DNA of 35,480 nucleotides from positions 1-35,480 of the forward strand of contig CANQMJ010000004.1 of NCBI GenBank assembly GCA_947624945.1. Reading direction: 5' to 3'. The DNA comes from an uncultured Clostridia bacterium (GTDB lineage Bacteria > Bacillota > Clostridia > Oscillospirales > CAG-272). Shown piece by piece: positions 14,545 to 30,993 of the stretch; the stretch's first letter is position 1, and each line of letters starts with the position of its first letter. The position numbers and the translations under genes were made by a program. The notes beneath the pieces were generated by a model. That model saw only the letters and a list, made by a program, of their open reading frames with translations, did not search any database and was not told where the DNA came from.

Positions 14545-15708
14545 TCATTCGGATTTACATTGTTTTACCCATTTTTCCCAGCGGGGATCCGCTTTTATTT
14601 CCTTTTCTATCTGCTCATAATCCGGGTTGCACCAGAACGGCCAATCGTCCGGCAGCGTTTTCGCGATCCCGACGCATAGCTCTGTTTTGTATGTTACGCG
14701 GGACAAAAGAGGCGCGGTGTAAGCGTGTTCTTTTCCGTCGCAGAGCGATTCGAGCGCCCGTGCATGACGGAGCGCTTCGTCCAAAGAGACAAAAGCGTCG
14801 TCGTGAAGTCCGCGCTCCCATTCGAGCCGCGATAAATACAAATAGAGCTTGATGAGCGTACCGTGATATGCGCCGAAGTTTCCGTCATCACAGAGAAGTC
14901 CCCAAAGCGAGATGACGCCCCTCACTTTTTGAACAGGCAAATCGCTCGTAAAGTGATTTTTATTGGCGATAAGCCCGTATACGACCTGCTCGGAAAAGAT
15001 ATCCGCCATTTTAAGCAGCAGTTCGCCGACGTATTTCGCTTCTTCTTTTCCGTCCTCAGCTCCCGCAAGCAAAACTTCACGGCTTTTGTGCAGTTCGGGC
15101 ATCCGTTCGGCGCAAGTGATTGCTTTTTCGTTTTCTCCGATGTTTCGATAGAGAAGCACCAATATTGAGATCGCTTTTGTGACGATTTCATAATCATGTG
15201 CAGAATCTGCCAAAGTTTCACAGAGCTTGATCGCTTCATCCCAATACGGGTTTTGCCTGTGAACATCATAGTCGTGCCTGATATAGCCCTCGTCGTCGTA
15301 ATACAGCCATTCATGATGACGTCTCCAACCCGCCTCGGAAAGCGTATCGGCAAGTGTGATCATAAGCCGTTCGTTTTGCGGAAATTCGGCAAGACCATCA
15401 CGTAAAATAGACAGACACTCGTCCACCCAGTTGTCGTCGCCGCGTCCTTTTATGTGAAACGAGTCGATTTTTTGAATAATGGCGTCGATCTTTTTCTCGC
15501 GGTCGTTTTGATACCCGAACAGCTCGTCTATGGACACGCCGAAATAATTTGCGATGCTCGGAACGAGTTCTAAATCCGGGTAACTGCCGCCGGCCTCCCA
15601 ACGGGAAACGGCTTGAGCGGTGACGCCGACCGCAGTTGCCAAATCGTCTTGTTTCCTCGCGTCACGCAGCCGAAGCTCTTTGATTTTTTCACCTATTGTA
15701 ATTTTCAT
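14545..15708 (-). CDS. XRE-family HTH transcriptional regulator with TPR-like C-terminal domain
   Basis: N-terminal HTH 'IGEKIKELRLRDARKQDDLATAVGVTAQAVSRWEAGGSYPDLELVPSIANYFGVSIDELFG' and ~310-aa helical C-terminus. Confidence 0.88.
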   Translation of the reverse strand: MKITIGEKIKELRLRDARKQDDLATAVGVTAQAVSRWEAGGSYPDLELVPSIANYFGVSIDELFGYQNDREKKIDAIIQKIDSFHIKGRGDDNWVDECLSILRDGLAEFPQNERLMITLADTLSEAGWRRHHEWLYYDDEGYIRHDYDVHRQNPYWDEAIKLCETLADSAHDYEIVTKAISILVLLYRNIGENEKAITCAERMPELHKSREVLLAGAEDGKEEAKYVGELLLKMADIFSEQVVYGLIANKNHFTSDLPVQKVRGVISLWGLLCDDGNFGAYHGTLIKLYLYLSRLEWERGLHDDAFVSLDEALRHARALESLCDGKEHAYTAPLLSRVTYKTELCVGIAKTLPDDWPFWCNPDYEQIEKEIKADPRWEKWVKQCKSE

Positions 15709-15940: not shown

Positions 15941-16978
15941 TTATATAATGCTTTCCATCCACGATTCGCGCAGCGACATGGCGACGCCGCGCGCGCTGTG
16001 ACGCAGACTTGACGAGCCTGCGATGAATTCGGGCATACGCTCTGGCGGCAGATGGAACTCTTTGGCGAGCGACGATTTTATCTCCGATATAAGCATATCG
16101 GGTTCGCGGAGTCTGTCGCTTTCGATGATGAACGCGTCGGGGTCGATTATCGTGATGATATTGTATATCGCCGACGACAGCTCGCTGCATATTTCGGCGT
16201 CGGAGCGGCAGCGTGCGATGCGCGATTCCAAAAGCTCGCCGTGACGCAGCACCATGCGCCCGAAGTCGCACTCGAAGCCGTGCGCGCCCTTGACTACTTG
16301 GTCGCGGTTGTAGACGGCGCCGTCTATCGTCTCGCCCATGAACATGTAAATGACGGTGCGGTGTCCGCATCCGTCCATGCTGCGCACGTTCGACAGAGCG
16401 GCCGCCTCGACGCTTTTCATCACGACGGACACTGGTCTGCCGAGTACTGATTCTGCGGTTTCACACAGACGCACCGTGTCCATATCGGGTATCTTATCGC
16501 TTATGACGATGTCGCGGTCTCGCATGTATATTCCCGGCACGCATATGCCGACGCCGATCAGCTTATCCGCGTCGGCGCGGTCGGATATTGCAGATGCGGC
16601 ATTTTTGAGGAACAAAAGCAAGTTGTCGCGGTATGTGAACTCATCGGAATAATTGTGCGTGAACGAGTCGGTGTGGGTGAGCGACACGTCGACGATGTTC
16701 ATGCGGAACGCGCGCTCGGACAGATCGATCACGACGGCGTAATAGTCGCGGTTGAGCGACACGACGCCGGCGCGTCGTCCCGCCGCATGGCGCGTATCCT
16801 TTTCCTGCGTCAGCACGTCTGCGTCTAAAAGGGCGTCGACGACCTTGCCGACTGTCATGAGCGATAGTCCCGTCGATTTGGCGACGTCGGCGCGGCACAC
16901 ACGTCCGCCGTCTGCTATTGCCTTGAATATGCCGAGCGCTCCCGCGCGTTTTATGCCGTGAAGTTCCGCTTTTACCAT
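15941..16978 (-). CDS. ROK family transcriptional regulator (NagC/XylR-like)
   Basis: N-terminal winged helix 'RADVAKSTGLSLMTVGKVVDALLDADVL' plus ROK-like 'GVGICVPGIYMRD' and 'MGETIDGAVYNRDQVVKGAHGFECDFGRMVL'. Confidence 0.8.
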   Translation of the reverse strand: MVKAELHGIKRAGALGIFKAIADGGRVCRADVAKSTGLSLMTVGKVVDALLDADVLTQEKDTRHAAGRRAGVVSLNRDYYAVVIDLSERAFRMNIVDVSLTHTDSFTHNYSDEFTYRDNLLLFLKNAASAISDRADADKLIGVGICVPGIYMRDRDIVISDKIPDMDTVRLCETAESVLGRPVSVVMKSVEAAALSNVRSMDGCGHRTVIYMFMGETIDGAVYNRDQVVKGAHGFECDFGRMVLRHGELLESRIARCRSDAEICSELSSAIYNIITIIDPDAFIIESDRLREPDMLISEIKSSLAKEFHLPPERMPEFIAGSSSLRHSARGVAMSLRESWMESII

Positions 16979-17101: not shown

Positions 17102-17357
17102 TGACCCCTTCAAAACTTTTCACTGACCGGTTTTATTTGCCGTACCGTTCGCCTGTGCGGTGATTTTTCACCTGTACGTACGCTTCGGTGCTCGACTCCG
17201 TCTCCGCCCGTCTCTGACGAGACGGCAGCTTCGCTGATGTTTGGGCAAAGTGCGGGGCAATATTTTTTCAAAAAAAATCTCAAAAAATCCAACCGTTGAT
17301 TATTTAGGTGTGTCTATATAGTGCAGCTGCAAAAAACGTATTCCGAAGGAGCAGAAA

Positions 17358-19880
17358 ATGGTCAAATACAATGACGAAAGCGACGAAATACTTGTTGCGC
17401 TCACGCTGACGGGCGACGAACGGGCGTATGAGGCGCTCGTACTGCGCCATCAGAAGCGTGTGCTTGCGTCGGCGAAGGCGGTGACGCGCAGGGACTTCAT
17501 GGCGGAGGACGCGGCGCAGGACGCGTTCGTCGCGGCGTGGATGAAGCTCGACAAGCTGTCGGACCCGTCGAAATTCGGTCAGTGGGTGAGCCGCATAGCG
17601 CGCAACCGCGCCGTGAACATGATGACGCGGGCGAAGCAGTACGTAGACATCGAGGACGTGTCGTTCACGCTCGAATCGACATACAACGTCGAGGAAGCCA
17701 TTTTGCAGTCCGAGGAATACGGCGAGCTCCGCCGACAGCTGCAGAGACTGCCGCAGAAGATAAAGACGGTCATATATCTCTACTATTTCGAGGGGCTCAC
17801 GATACCGAAAATAGCGGAAAAACTGAATTACCCGGAGGGAACTGTAAAATGGCAGCTCTCGGAGGGCAGGCGGACATTGAGAGGAGAATTATCTGCAATG
17901 AATGAAAAGATCGACGATACGCTCGTCGAAAAGGTCATGAAGAAGGTCGAGGAGCTGAAAAACTGGCGTCTTAAGGACAACAAACGCGGCATCGAAAACG
18001 TATACCGCGAGGTGCTCGCGGCTGTCGAGGCGCTGCCGGAATCGAAGGAAAGGTATCACGCGCTCGCGGATACTCTCGTCGTCGGCAGATGGTGGGTGCA
18101 CGGCGAGGACAGCGACGAAAATTTAGCGCGTCTGCGCGATGCGGCTCTGCGCGGACACAACGAGAACGCGATGGCAACGGTCATGTATGTGGAGCAAAGA
18201 AGGCTTTTCGGCGACGAGAAGATTGTGTATGTACGTGACACACAAATACCGTTTTTGAAGGAAAACGGATTCAGCTCTGCGCTCGGATACGTGTATTTCA
18301 GGCTCTCGCGCGAGTATTTCGTGAACAAAAACGACAGAGAGAGCGGGTACGCTGCGCTGAGGTCGGCGCTGGACGTGCTTCCGGAAGAAAGCGAATATCA
18401 CGCGTGCGCGCTTGCGGCGATGAATGCGAACCGTATCTATGACGAAGAGGCGGCGAAAAAGCAGAAATTCGGTTTCGGCTGCGACTGCGATGTGATCAAA
18501 TTTGTAAACGGCGAACCGAGATATTACACACAGCCGGGATATAGCTATCGAATCAGCGGACTGGCGGGACTGGCGCGTGACGAGACGTTCTACGACGCAT
18601 CGCGCTGCGACAGCAGGTACTTTGTCAAAGGCGCGTCTGTCGGCGACGTATACACAGGCACCGACGAGGCTAAAACGCTCACATATGCGTCAAGCGGCGC
18701 GGTCGTAGAAACAAAGGCGGGCACGTTTGAAAATTGCGACGTCTGGGTCACAAACGAAAAATATGACGGAGGAAAAACGACCGTATACTACAAGGACGGC
18801 GTCGGCATAGTTCGCATCGTGTACGAAAGCATAACAAGACCGACTTACTCGGAGTCGCTCGTCTCGTATCATATCGCAGGCGGAAAAGGGATTCTGCCGT
18901 TATGCCGCGGCAATAAGTGGGAGTACGAAAAAGACAGCGCCGGCATATATTCGCATAACGGCGTTTATGAGGTCACATACTGCGACGGCAAATACGCGCT
19001 CGTGTCGGCTTATCAGACGTCATGGCTGCGCGACGGCGATCAGACAGTCGACTTTGAAGGAATGTTGACAACGATCCATGAAGAGTATGCTACACAGGAC
19101 GAGCAAGGTGATGAGCATATTCACGATGTGTCAAAGCGGGTCGCCGAGCTGCGCGAGCTTGCGAGTTCCGAGTGGCAGACCGTGTACTGCGATACGCTTG
19201 GGCGCGTGCTGAAGCGTATGTGCGACACTGATCCCGAATTTACGCCCGACTGCAAGGAGAACGGGATGTGGGAGTTCATCGAATTGTATAACATCGTCGA
19301 CGGCAACAGAATAAACAATTTATTCTGGCCGTACTCGCTGCAATGGAAGGGTGTAAGGGGAGACGCCGAAAGTCACTTGCTCTGCAACAACGACATATAC
19401 GGGATACTCACCGACTGTCTCGGCATGTCATGGAGCGACGATTGGGAGTTCGATGTCGACATGAGCGATCAGCACTATGTCTTCGATATAGCATATTCGT
19501 CACGGTTCAGACTGTCGCACGCAGGCACGGTCAGCGTCAGAGCCGGTACGTTTGACGACTGCGTCCGACTCGACGTTGACACCGACAATTTGCCGGCGGG
19601 ATGGAGTTATCGCGGCGGCAGGCACAGCTACGTGTATGCGCCCGGCGTCGGCATAATTCGCGTCGAGTTCGGCGAGGGCGACAGTCACGGCGTATACGAG
19701 CTTACGTCTTACGAGGGCGTCGGCGAGGGCTACATGCCGCTGCATGCGGGCATGAAGCGCCGCTACGAGCTGACGGGCGCGCGCGACGGTCTTATCGGCG
19801 AGACGGAGTATGTGTACGTCAGCACCGATACGGGCGTGCTTCTTATCGTGCGCGATTCGTCGGGCAGGGAAAAGAGGTAA
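17358..19880 (+). CDS. ECF-type sigma-70 family factor with large C-terminal extension (helical region plus repeated beta-type domains)
   Basis: Residues ~1-178: sigma2 (YEALVLRHQKRVLASAKAVTRRDFMAEDAAQDAFVAAWMKLDKL) and sigma4 (LQRLPQKIKTVIYLYYFEGLTIPKIAEKLNYPEGTVKWQLSEGRRTLR). The remaining ~660 aa include two 'AGTFxxC...GVGIxRxxxE' units. SD AAGGAGC precedes the ATG. Confidence 0.88.
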   Translation: MVKYNDESDEILVALTLTGDERAYEALVLRHQKRVLASAKAVTRRDFMAEDAAQDAFVAAWMKLDKLSDPSKFGQWVSRIARNRAVNMMTRAKQYVDIEDVSFTLESTYNVEEAILQSEEYGELRRQLQRLPQKIKTVIYLYYFEGLTIPKIAEKLNYPEGTVKWQLSEGRRTLRGELSAMNEKIDDTLVEKVMKKVEELKNWRLKDNKRGIENVYREVLAAVEALPESKERYHALADTLVVGRWWVHGEDSDENLARLRDAALRGHNENAMATVMYVEQRRLFGDEKIVYVRDTQIPFLKENGFSSALGYVYFRLSREYFVNKNDRESGYAALRSALDVLPEESEYHACALAAMNANRIYDEEAAKKQKFGFGCDCDVIKFVNGEPRYYTQPGYSYRISGLAGLARDETFYDASRCDSRYFVKGASVGDVYTGTDEAKTLTYASSGAVVETKAGTFENCDVWVTNEKYDGGKTTVYYKDGVGIVRIVYESITRPTYSESLVSYHIAGGKGILPLCRGNKWEYEKDSAGIYSHNGVYEVTYCDGKYALVSAYQTSWLRDGDQTVDFEGMLTTIHEEYATQDEQGDEHIHDVSKRVAELRELASSEWQTVYCDTLGRVLKRMCDTDPEFTPDCKENGMWEFIELYNIVDGNRINNLFWPYSLQWKGVRGDAESHLLCNNDIYGILTDCLGMSWSDDWEFDVDMSDQHYVFDIAYSSRFRLSHAGTVSVRAGTFDDCVRLDVDTDNLPAGWSYRGGRHSYVYAPGVGIIRVEFGEGDSHGVYELTSYEGVGEGYMPLHAGMKRRYELTGARDGLIGETEYVYVSTDTGVLLIVRDSSGREKR

Positions 19881-19958: not shown

Positions 19959-22037
19959 TTACTCTACTTTTTCCCATCTGTAACTTTTGCATTTGGTGTT
20001 GTTTTTGATAGCACGTTCTATCGATTTTCTTGATACGCCGATAGATTTTGCTGCTGCTGCACCACTTTCAAAAATTTCACCGGTGTCGACATTTCTGACT
20101 TGCAGTCGTCCGGCACATTTAGGACATCCGGTTTTACCGTGTGTTCGTGAATTAATAATTGCTTCCCAGCTATGTCCTTTACTGCACCTCCACCAAACTT
20201 TTTCATTCGAACCTGATGGATAGTCTTCCGGATTTTTTTCGTTTTTATCGTAATCCCATTCTTTTACCAATTCGGGATAATGATCTGCCAAAGAGCCTTT
20301 TTTAGCAAGGTTATGTTTTTTTCTTGTTTCTACGCTTTTGCTTTGTCCGCATTTGGGGCATCCGCGGTGCATTTTTGTTCTCTGATATGGAGAAGATTCC
20401 CACGAATAACCGCAATTTTTGCAAACCCACCAAACTATTTTTGATGATCCCGGAATACAGTCTCCCGGAGAAATTTCTTTTTTTTCATAATCCCATTCTT
20501 CAAGTAATATAGGGAATTTTTCTGCAAGTGAACCTTTGCTTTTCTTCAATGTTTCATTCAAATTTATAATTCTATTTTGTTTTGCACAATTCGGACATCG
20601 CCCTCCTTGGCTGACTGAGAATATCTGTGCTTCCCATTCATATCCGCACGTATCACATTTCCACCAAACTTTTTTGTTAGAACCCGCAGTAAACTCTTCA
20701 GGGGCAGGTATATTCTTTTCATAATTCCATATTGTTTTCAGTTCCGGACAAGCGGTAAATAAATCATTTTCTCCCTTATACGCTTTCTTTCCGGCACAAT
20801 ACGGGCAACCCGCTTTTCTCCCGGATGTTCTCGAAGATATCGCAGCTTCCCATTCATGCCCTTTGTCACATTTCCACCAAACTTTTTCATCTGAGCCTTT
20901 ACTATATTTTTCCGGCCCGTTTTCGTTTTTATTATAATTCCATTCAGAAATGAGTTCAGGATTAGACGTTGTAAGGTCATTAAAACCGACTTTAATTCTT
21001 TTCCCCGAACAATATGGACACTTGTTGTGTCCAATTGTTTTATTTGCAACAGTCATGTCATAATCATAACCGCATTTTTTGCATGTCCACCAAACTCTTT
21101 TATTTGAGGCATAACCAAATGATTCAGGCTTGAGATTTTTATTTTTTTCGTAGCACCATTCAGCCGCAATTTCAGGATATTTTACAGCAACACTATTTTC
21201 TTTAATTGACCTAACATATAAATTATAGATATCTGTCGCATCACGTTTTAAATCTATGTCGGGAACCGGCAAACCTATTATTTCAACCACCTTTTTGAGT
21301 CCCCAGACAAACTCATCGTCAGTCGGGTTACTTTTTTCTACTGTTTGCAGAGTTATTGTGTCGCCCGTCTGTTCTCTGTTTCTGCCACACTGAATAACTA
21401 TAACTCTAATACCGTTGTTTCTGAGAAATTCGTATTTTTGCGCGTCTTTGTTTTCCTTTTGACTATGGAAATACTCACCGTTATATTCTATACCGATATT
21501 AAGATTGGAAATATAAACGTCTAATTCTTTTCCATGAACTATTTTTCTATTTTCAACTGAAATTATTTTTGAAAGATAATAGAAGATAGTTTGTTCCTGC
21601 TTCGATGTATGACTTTCTTTTGTGCAGTCCGGACATGCAAAGCCTTGCGATGTTCTTTCAACTATTTTCCTTTTATAGCTTTGACCGCATATAGGGCAAA
21701 CCCAGCTTACACTTTTATTTGAGAATGGCAAATAATCGCTCGGTAGTTTTTCATTATTTGCATAATCCCATTCTTTTGCCAATGCGGGGTATTTTGTTTC
21801 AAAGTCGTTCTCACCTTTTATCGGTAATTTACCCGCACAATAAGGACACCCGGACTGCTCCCTTGTTCTATGATCTATTCTCGCACGATATGAATGATTT
21901 TCTTTGCACCGCCACCATGCTTCGATGTCAGAATGCGGAGGTACTGTTGACGGCGTTTTATCGTTTTTCTCATAATCCCACTCTGATGCTATTTCGGGAT
22001 ATTCAGTTTGAAGGCTTTTTTTGAGTTCTTTTTTCAT
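19959..22037 (-). CDS. Multi-zinc-ribbon (DUF4379-like) protein with embedded Vsr/PD-(D/E)XK-like nuclease core and NUMOD-like C-terminus
   Basis: Seven repeats of 'YPELxxEWDYxKNxxxPexyxxGSNxKVWWxCxxxGxxWEAxIxxRTxxxxGCPxCxGK'; between repeats 2 and 3 'KELDVYISNLNIGIEYNGEYFH...DAQKYEFLRNNGIRVIVIQ'; tail 'VRNVDTGEIFESGAAAAKSIGVSRKSIERAIKNNTKCKSYRWEKVE'. Confidence 0.82.
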   Translation of the reverse strand: MKKELKKSLQTEYPEIASEWDYEKNDKTPSTVPPHSDIEAWWRCKENHSYRARIDHRTREQSGCPYCAGKLPIKGENDFETKYPALAKEWDYANNEKLPSDYLPFSNKSVSWVCPICGQSYKRKIVERTSQGFACPDCTKESHTSKQEQTIFYYLSKIISVENRKIVHGKELDVYISNLNIGIEYNGEYFHSQKENKDAQKYEFLRNNGIRVIVIQCGRNREQTGDTITLQTVEKSNPTDDEFVWGLKKVVEIIGLPVPDIDLKRDATDIYNLYVRSIKENSVAVKYPEIAAEWCYEKNKNLKPESFGYASNKRVWWTCKKCGYDYDMTVANKTIGHNKCPYCSGKRIKVGFNDLTTSNPELISEWNYNKNENGPEKYSKGSDEKVWWKCDKGHEWEAAISSRTSGRKAGCPYCAGKKAYKGENDLFTACPELKTIWNYEKNIPAPEEFTAGSNKKVWWKCDTCGYEWEAQIFSVSQGGRCPNCAKQNRIINLNETLKKSKGSLAEKFPILLEEWDYEKKEISPGDCIPGSSKIVWWVCKNCGYSWESSPYQRTKMHRGCPKCGQSKSVETRKKHNLAKKGSLADHYPELVKEWDYDKNEKNPEDYPSGSNEKVWWRCSKGHSWEAIINSRTHGKTGCPKCAGRLQVRNVDTGEIFESGAAAAKSIGVSRKSIERAIKNNTKCKSYRWEKVE

Positions 22038-29877: not shown

Positions 29878-30993
29878 TCAAAAGGCGATTTTTTCGAGCC
29901 GTTCGGTTACGGCTTTGAATCTGTCGCTTTCACGTATCGGGTCGAATGTGTCGATTGCAAGTCTTTGATTCAGCATATACCATGCGTTGTTGTGGACGAC
30001 GGTTGTGTGGAAATCGCCGAACGGCGTGATCTCTTCGGGATACGCCATCATATTCGTGAACGGAGAGTTGAATTTGTCGCCGGGTTTGACGCTGCACTCC
30101 CGCTCAACGTGAGCGCACATCGTCTCGAGCGCGTCGAGCGCTTCATCGTACTTTTCCGCATAGAGCATGTAACAAGCGATGTTGCGGTAAAGCTCCGCGA
30201 CGCGGCAGTTGTAGAAATTGAGCTCATCACCGAAGACGAATTTGTAAATCGAAATGATGAACTTGAGCATTTCGATTTTTTTGTCCCACGAATCGGGACC
30301 GCCGGGGAGCCTGTTTAAGATGTATCTTTCAAGCTCGGAGCAAAGACCGTCCGTCAGCTTTTCTATGTAGTCCTGAACCGGATAGTCGTCGGAGTTATTG
30401 ATCGCATAGTCAGACGCGACCCTCTCGCGGCAGTTTTTCATCACAGGTAGGCGGAGAAGTGTGCGCTGTGCCTTGAAGTTGTCCTTGAACCCGTAGCCGT
30501 AGAGCGCCGTAAGTGAATCAAGCACTTCGTTTCTGAAATCGTTATCCTTCGTCGTCTCGGCAAGCGTCTGCAATATTCTCTCGGCTTCCGTCAACTCGTT
30601 CATATTCGGTTCATCGTCCCACATCGAATGTGAAAGGCAGTCCGCGAGATTGTCGAGGATCCGTTCGTCGTACGGGAATTCTGCGGCATACTCGCGTGCG
30701 CGCTTCAGCGAGTCCGCGCTGCCCTCGTCCGTCTCGTTGCTGCGCTGTATTTCGAGATAAATCTCGCGCAGACGGCGCGCGCGGTCGCTGTGTTCGACGC
30801 CCAAAAGCGTATCTGTGCTGACGCCGAAATATTCGGCGATATAGGGCAGCGTCTCGATGTCGGGGTATCCGTTGCCGGCCTCCCAGCGGGAGATCGCCTG
30901 CGGCGTCACGCCGAGAAACGACGATAACTGTTCCTGCGTCACTCTGCGCTCAGCGCGGAGATTTTTTATAGTTTCACCTATTTTGAGATTCAT
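29878..30993 (-). CDS. XRE-family HTH transcriptional regulator with TPR-like C-terminal domain (paralog of 14545-15708)
   Basis: HTH 'IGETIKNLRAERRVTQEQLSSFLGVTPQAISRWEAGNGYPDIETLPYIAEYFGVSTDTLLG' with helical C-terminus. Confidence 0.88.
   Translation of the reverse strand: MNLKIGETIKNLRAERRVTQEQLSSFLGVTPQAISRWEAGNGYPDIETLPYIAEYFGVSTDTLLGVEHSDRARRLREIYLEIQRSNETDEGSADSLKRAREYAAEFPYDERILDNLADCLSHSMWDDEPNMNELTEAERILQTLAETTKDNDFRNEVLDSLTALYGYGFKDNFKAQRTLLRLPVMKNCRERVASDYAINNSDDYPVQDYIEKLTDGLCSELERYILNRLPGGPDSWDKKIEMLKFIISIYKFVFGDELNFYNCRVAELYRNIACYMLYAEKYDEALDALETMCAHVERECSVKPGDKFNSPFTNMMAYPEEITPFGDFHTTVVHNNAWYMLNQRLAIDTFDPIRESDRFKAVTERLEKIAF

Follow-up and report, generated by a model that had tools for sequence, protein, structure and literature searches.

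A probable one-component, self-regulated ECF sigma factor with a long DUF3108-like extension in uncultured Clostridia

Published groups of extended ECF sigma factors have tails of 50-200 amino acids (PMC9023288), and ECF extensions can reach ~400 amino acids (PMC8999054). Of the 26 ECF groups that carry such extensions, 15 have had no study of their mechanism (PMC8999054). ECF42 factors have a TPR extension that makes contact with sigma4 (PMC9023288), and a YCII gene is retained in the neighborhood of their genes (PMC8999054). The fused domain of ECF41 factors allows as well as restrains activity, and only one target transcript is detectable (PMC3426412). Another example is OrbS, which senses iron with its own tail (PMC9023288).

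We analyzed a 35,480-nucleotide stretch of DNA (the window) from the 2.34-Mb draft genome of an uncultured gut Clostridia bacterium. The window contains an intact open reading frame, with an ATG start, that encodes an ECF sigma factor with a fused extension (Table 1). The protein has sigma2 and sigma4 above curated cut-offs and no sigma3, as expected for the ECF superfamily, and it scores 82.7 bits against TIGR02937 (sigma70-ECF), versus a cut-off of 42.9. The original prediction, which was made from this sequence by itself, was that a complete ECF core is continuous with an extension of ~650 amino acids and that the protein has no transmembrane segment. Both statements hold. Across the 840 amino acids, there is no transmembrane-like segment (the best 19-residue hydropathy is 1.01), and the extension (~660 amino acids) is, on its sequence, soluble. 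No domain from Pfam or NCBIfam matches the C-terminal 660 amino acids above its curated cut-off.

In a full-length AlphaFold2 model, which was built with a 24-sequence alignment (pLDDT of 84), residues 180-364 are all helix and residues 371-840 are beta with a helical insert. This is the order that had been predicted (a helical region and then beta-type units). When the beta part was modelled alone, the pLDDT was 89 and the pTM was 0.85. For the TPR-like arm, a search of PDB with the family profile finds consensus TPR proteins, and 3 of 21 family members have a match to TPR_2. We think that this protein is probably a one-component, positively autoregulated ECF sigma factor that is gated by its own extension.

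Table 1. Features of the sigma factor gene and its upstream region (positions in the window)
Feature	Position	Strand	Evidence
-35 element of predicted autopromoter, CCAACCGTT	17289..17297	+	Same-spacing conservation in most subfamily-A homologues
-10 element of predicted autopromoter, TGTCTATA (AACC-N17-GTCTA)	17311..17318	+	Conservation; pattern and matrix scans
10-bp perfect palindrome over predicted transcription start, TGCAGCTGCA	17322..17331	+	Palindromes at the same place in homologues
Ribosome-binding site, AAGGAG	17346..17351	+	Read directly from the sequence
ECF sigma factor with fused extension, 840 aa	17358..19880	+	Intact ORF; Pfam and TIGR02937
Sigma region 2, residues 27-93	17436..17636	+	PF04542 (Sigma70_r2), E = 3.5e-12, above Pfam cut-off
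Sigma region 4, residues 123-174	17724..17879	+	PF08281 (r4_2), E = 1e-10, above Pfam cut-off
Conserved linker helix and TPR-like helical arm, residues 177-364	17886..18449	+	All-helix model; profile match
DUF3108-like module 1, residues 371-508, without the free domain's N-terminal strands	18468..18881	+	Model; profile alignment
DUF3108-like module 2, residues 512-787, with a helical insert at ~560-632	18891..19718	+	Model; profiles
C-terminal strands, residues 793-840, start of a further DUF3108-like domain	19734..19877	+	Model; profile alignment

The beta region had been described as repeated 'AGTFxxC...GVGI' units of a type usually seen in envelope proteins. The two units are true repeats (profile-profile probability of 99.4, E = 1e-21), but they are not equal units. 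Their tails (GILPLCRGNKWEYE and GYMPLHAGMKRRYE) already belong to the next DUF3108-like domain, whose start they form, and this gives the order C-half / N-half ... C-half / N-half. The profile of the free lipoprotein domain aligns to residues 444-506 (C-half), 513-534 (N-half), and 723-786 (C-half), and in members of subfamily B (described below), it also aligns to another N-half close to the C terminus. The same order of half-domains emerges for the whole family from profile-profile comparison, with a weak fourth match. The strands at 793-840 may pair with module 1 and complete it around module 2; in longer homologues, these strands run on for ~200 amino acids.

The link to DUF3108 comes from several comparisons. 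The window protein scores 19.5 bits against PF21347 (DUF3108_like), which is below the gathering cut-off of 27, and 22 of 24 family members match this model with E ≤ 0.01 (the best is 1.5e-9). With the beta profile, we found matching proteins in another 58 Bacillota genomes, and the best of these are lipoproteins; the matching proteins have 200-260 amino acids, and most have lipoprotein-type N termini. The beta profile also matches the structures 4fvs ("putative lipoprotein", E = 4.8e-8) and 3fzx ("putative exported protein", E = 4.2e-5). Two BlaR1/M56 peptidase receptors (L115 and L122) carry a DUF3108-like domain at their C terminus, which suggests a sensory role for the domain. The lipoproteins and the receptors share a homologous beta module with the sigma factor, including an AGxFxxC...GVGxV core, but theirs are single modules that are exported or membrane-bound, while the sigma factor has two interleaved modules in the cytosol. 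The pairing of envelope-type units with a cytosolic sigma factor was thus rightly singled out. DUF3108 proteins have been described as outer-membrane proteins with a YmcC fold (PMC4364669), and in the literature that we searched, no paper connected DUF3108 to sigma factors. Foldseek searches with both models gave no confident fold match beyond the sigma core (resemblances to helix-grip/START folds were weak, with TM below 0.2), so any ligand pocket in the beta part is hypothetical.

The fusion of the sigma core to the extension recurs in ~25 genes from ~19 genomes, in several families of Clostridia. With the window's own genome counted in both figures, there are fused homologues in 12 of 38 close relatives and in 8 of 291 genomes in a class-wide sample. 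In a phylum-wide sample, no genome other than the window's own had a full-length match. The same genome also holds a full-length paralogue (28% identity), and the gene's closest named relative is from an uncultured Clostridia metagenome-assembled genome, isolate Lapin-004. The family has two subfamilies, A (836-1056 amino acids, including the window gene) and B (about 873-887 amino acids), and the extensions have 660-870 amino acids. Homologues with the sigma core and the extension in separate genes had been named beforehand as evidence against a genuine fusion, and there are none. The apparent exceptions are pieces at contig edges (C1 and C39 of G008), a frameshift inside sigma4 (G210), and a shortened homologue (L035) that ends after module 1. 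Because independent genomes share the architecture, and because the apparent splits are due to contig edges or the G210 frameshift, we ruled out an assembly fusion. We also rejected a viral, phage, or plasmid origin: the extension has no phage or plasmid match, and matches to viral contigs cover the sigma core only.

Across 21 homologous loci, we found neither an anti-sigma gene nor any other conserved neighbor, in agreement with the expectation that no anti-sigma gene is adjacent. Within the window, a ROK-family regulator (15941-16978, - strand) is divergent from the sigma gene; it is kept in the closest relative and is not found at most homologous loci. After the sigma gene is a low-GC (37-39%) gene (19959-22037, - strand) that encodes seven DUF4379 zinc-finger units and weakly matches a homing endonuclease. 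This gene is absent from the closest relative's locus (L056) and looks recently acquired. The window also has two XRE-type regulators (14545-15708 and 29878-30993, both on the - strand), the first with weak TPR matches.

The window protein is an ECF sigma factor that is closest in principle to ECF41 and ECF42 and is a member of neither. Like ECF42, it lacks an anti-sigma factor and has a TPR extension that is C-terminal to its ECF core. However, the tail of ECF42 is ~200 amino acids and TPR only, while the tails in this family are ~660-870 amino acids with two DUF3108-like modules; in the window protein, ~470 amino acids of other domains come after the TPR part. ECF42 also features a DGGR motif, which is absent from the window protein and is found in just 3 of 24 members, far inside the extension (at residues 408, 992, and 993). 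None of the 20 window genes that we scanned encodes a YCII domain.

Control could nevertheless be like that of ECF42: the TPR arm would bind a partner that is encoded elsewhere, and the beta modules would be passive or would act as a contact surface, making a protein-protein switch instead of a ligand-driven one. The TPR-like arm does come directly after sigma4, and in ECF42, it is the sigma4-proximal part of the TPR extension that is needed for activity (PMC9023288, PMC8999054). We consider this unlikely, as the ~470-residue beta region is the most distinctive part of the protein and is absent from ECF42, and there is no conserved neighbor here, versus the YCII gene near ECF42 (PMC8999054).

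The likeness to ECF41 (SigJ and Ecf41Bli) is that a fused regulatory domain takes the place of an anti-sigma factor and that there is a single detectable target transcript (PMC3426412). However, ECF41 has a SnoaL-like domain and reads TGTCACA, while here we find DUF3108-like modules and CCAACC/TGTCTA. The SnoaL-like C-terminal domain of ECF41 and ECF56 has no match in the 24 members. OrbS (ECF243) and CorE/CorE2 (ECF238) also have an on-board sensor in a C-terminal extension, but theirs are short metal-binding extensions, and this protein has no comparable metal-binding tail; the CXC motif in the sigma2-sigma4 linker of CorE-like (ECF238) factors is in 0 of 24 members. The extension has no match to WD40, whose repeats are a feature of ECF57, and neither the zinc finger nor the transmembrane helices of fused anti-sigma factors (ECF48, ECF52, and ECF53) were found. 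On the tested features, then, this is not an ECF41, ECF42, ECF57, CorE-like, or fused-anti-sigma protein (ECF262, ECF264, and ECF288 are further extended groups with Firmicutes examples). Placement in a characterised group with a known mechanism would have argued against the original prediction, and among the extended groups whose features we tested, there was no match.

As for how the gene is controlled, a promoter motif upstream of it had been suggested as something to look for, and a conserved ECF-type promoter (CCAACCkTT-N13-TGTCTA) is directly upstream. The upstream regions of subfamily A cannot be aligned overall, yet they have CCAACC(T/G)TTT and TGTCTA in common, at a fixed spacing (AACC-N17-GTCTA). 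At the window gene, the promoter is of the form CCAACCkTTT-N12-TGTCTATA. We scanned 28 genomes (15 carriers of subfamily A and 13 others) for CCAACCKTT-N13-TGTCTA with at most one mismatch, and we used the reversed pattern as a control. In 13 of the 15 subfamily-A genomes, the pattern precedes the sigma gene, and 10 of these matches are exact. All ten exact matches precede the sigma gene, with one per genome and none elsewhere in the 28 genomes. The remaining seven matches in the 28 genomes have one mismatch each, which is similar to the control, and the 13 other genomes have only 4 one-mismatch matches. With two mismatches allowed, the total counts show no excess over the control; the scan would miss promoters that are recognised at lower stringency. 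When the window was scanned with a matrix, the promoter site of the sigma gene scored 28.0 and no other site scored above 16.4 (the matrix was built including the promoter site itself).

Subfamily B has its own conserved element, GACCGAGCATTT-N12-GNCACTA, likewise before its own genes. Copies of this promoter with no ECF gene downstream are found at L185 (in G005), L190 (G009), and L191 (G000), and these are possibly relics of lost genes. (The copy in G005 has no following ORF, and G000 and G009 have in common a second site without a clear target.) We considered a nucleoside phosphorylase as a further target (L160 and L170, in G000 and G009), and its related upstream site was too weak to claim.

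Because the conserved promoter is nearly unique and lies upstream of the gene itself, the comparison of genomes strongly supports positive autoregulation and gives strong evidence for a very small regulon. The sigma factor of the window presumably recognises the self-promoter itself; against this, other ECF factors of the same genome could read it. A single clear target per genome would also be expected of an autocatalytic expression cassette, in which the sigma core mainly serves its own extension, there is no regulon, and what is useful is the DUF3108-like/TPR part in the cytosol (for example, as a binder or sponge). ECF41 factors likewise control one transcript (PMC3426412), but single-target factors normally control a neighboring effector gene too. 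Also, the relaxed scan leaves room for weaker targets, and the extension has no enzymatic signature. We regard such a cassette as quite improbable.

At the predicted transcription start, 17 of 21 homologous promoters (from both subfamilies) have perfect palindromes of 8-12 bp, centered 15-17 nt downstream of where the -10 element begins. In shuffled controls, the count averaged 0.56 and never exceeded 4. After near-duplicates were removed, 11 of 15 promoters have the palindrome. The sequences vary (TGCAGCTGCA, GAAAGCTTTC, CAGATGCATCTG, TAAGCGCTTA, TGTAACGTTACA, AAAGACGTCTTT, and TGTAGCTACA), which means that symmetry is conserved and sequence is not. The simplest reading would be a dyad to which a dimeric regulator binds. 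A nearby XRE regulator, with similar TGCA half-sites, was considered as the partner; this was unsupported at other loci.

Similar palindromes precede a second kind of extended ECF gene, some simple ECF genes, and the two XRE regulators, whose sigma-A-like promoters have TGCACCGGTGCA and CGTGAGCTCACG near the start site. A GC-containing palindrome of at least 10 bp is upstream of 20 of 41 ECF genes and of 13 of 161 genes of other kinds (the set includes close homologues). The second kind of extended ECF factor has ~450-565 amino acids, partial winged-helix-like matches, and no transmembrane segment. Several copies are in the window's own genome (L004, L008, L009, L011, L014, and L016), and further loci are L069 (2163-3785 and 7261-8907), L176, L177, L180, and L181. 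Members in G004, G017, G021, and G141 have a related promoter directly upstream (CCAACCTTT-N11-TGTCT, with a 15-nt spacer). In G141, two genes of this kind flank a subfamily-A gene.

Across families, the extension of the sigma factor is kept at full length and at 20-40% identity, and both modules have residues that are invariant. When the window gene is compared with its closest relative, the dN/dS values are 0.03 (sigma core), 0.38 (TPR arm), 0.81 (module 1), 0.62 (insert region), and 0.31 (module 2). For two further pairs of homologues, every part has a dN/dS of 0.09-0.35 (0.12-0.35 for the modules and insert). By these measures, the extension is under purifying selection and has a function in this family. 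In the closest pair, no other part evolves as fast as module 1; this might suit a sensor, but the weak constraint on module 1 there could also mean lost function. A constitutive, ordinary ECF factor with a decaying and selectively unimportant appendage would account for the ratio in module 1 and for the homologue that stops after it, but is very improbable given the full-length conservation of the extension across families and the low ratios in the other two pairs.

We return to the reading that we favor, a one-component sigma factor that activates its own gene and is gated by its extension. The sigma2-sigma4 core would recognise the promoter directly upstream of its own gene. A helix that continues from sigma4 links the core to the TPR-like arm and then to the two interleaved DUF3108-like modules, and a domain that is at the cell surface in related bacteria is here kept in the cytosol. 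The extension would most likely replace the absent anti-sigma factor: the core would be held or released by what the beta modules bind (a small molecule, lipid, or peptide) or, alternatively, by the contacts of the TPR arm. A small initial activation would then be amplified via the self-promoter. Gating seems the most likely role because of the precedents of ECF41, ECF42, and OrbS, and it is from this analogy that we infer the gating, its direction, and a ligand. Overall, the data suggest a single-protein sensor switch of an undescribed type. It is possible, if somewhat doubtful, that these proteins form a self-targeting class, with their own promoter as the principal or only target, a surface-lipoprotein domain recruited as a cytosolic sensor, and the palindrome as a second, gene-specific control.

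What is new here is the conserved ECF-type self-promoter, which points to how the gene is controlled. The tails of this family, at 660-870 amino acids, derive from a domain that is otherwise seen outside the cell. With a defined candidate promoter and no accessory genes, gating by the tail should be testable with one gene, one promoter, and RNA polymerase. For DUF3108-like domains, which are found repeatedly on lipoproteins and BlaR1-like receptors and have no known function, the family also offers a clue to function.
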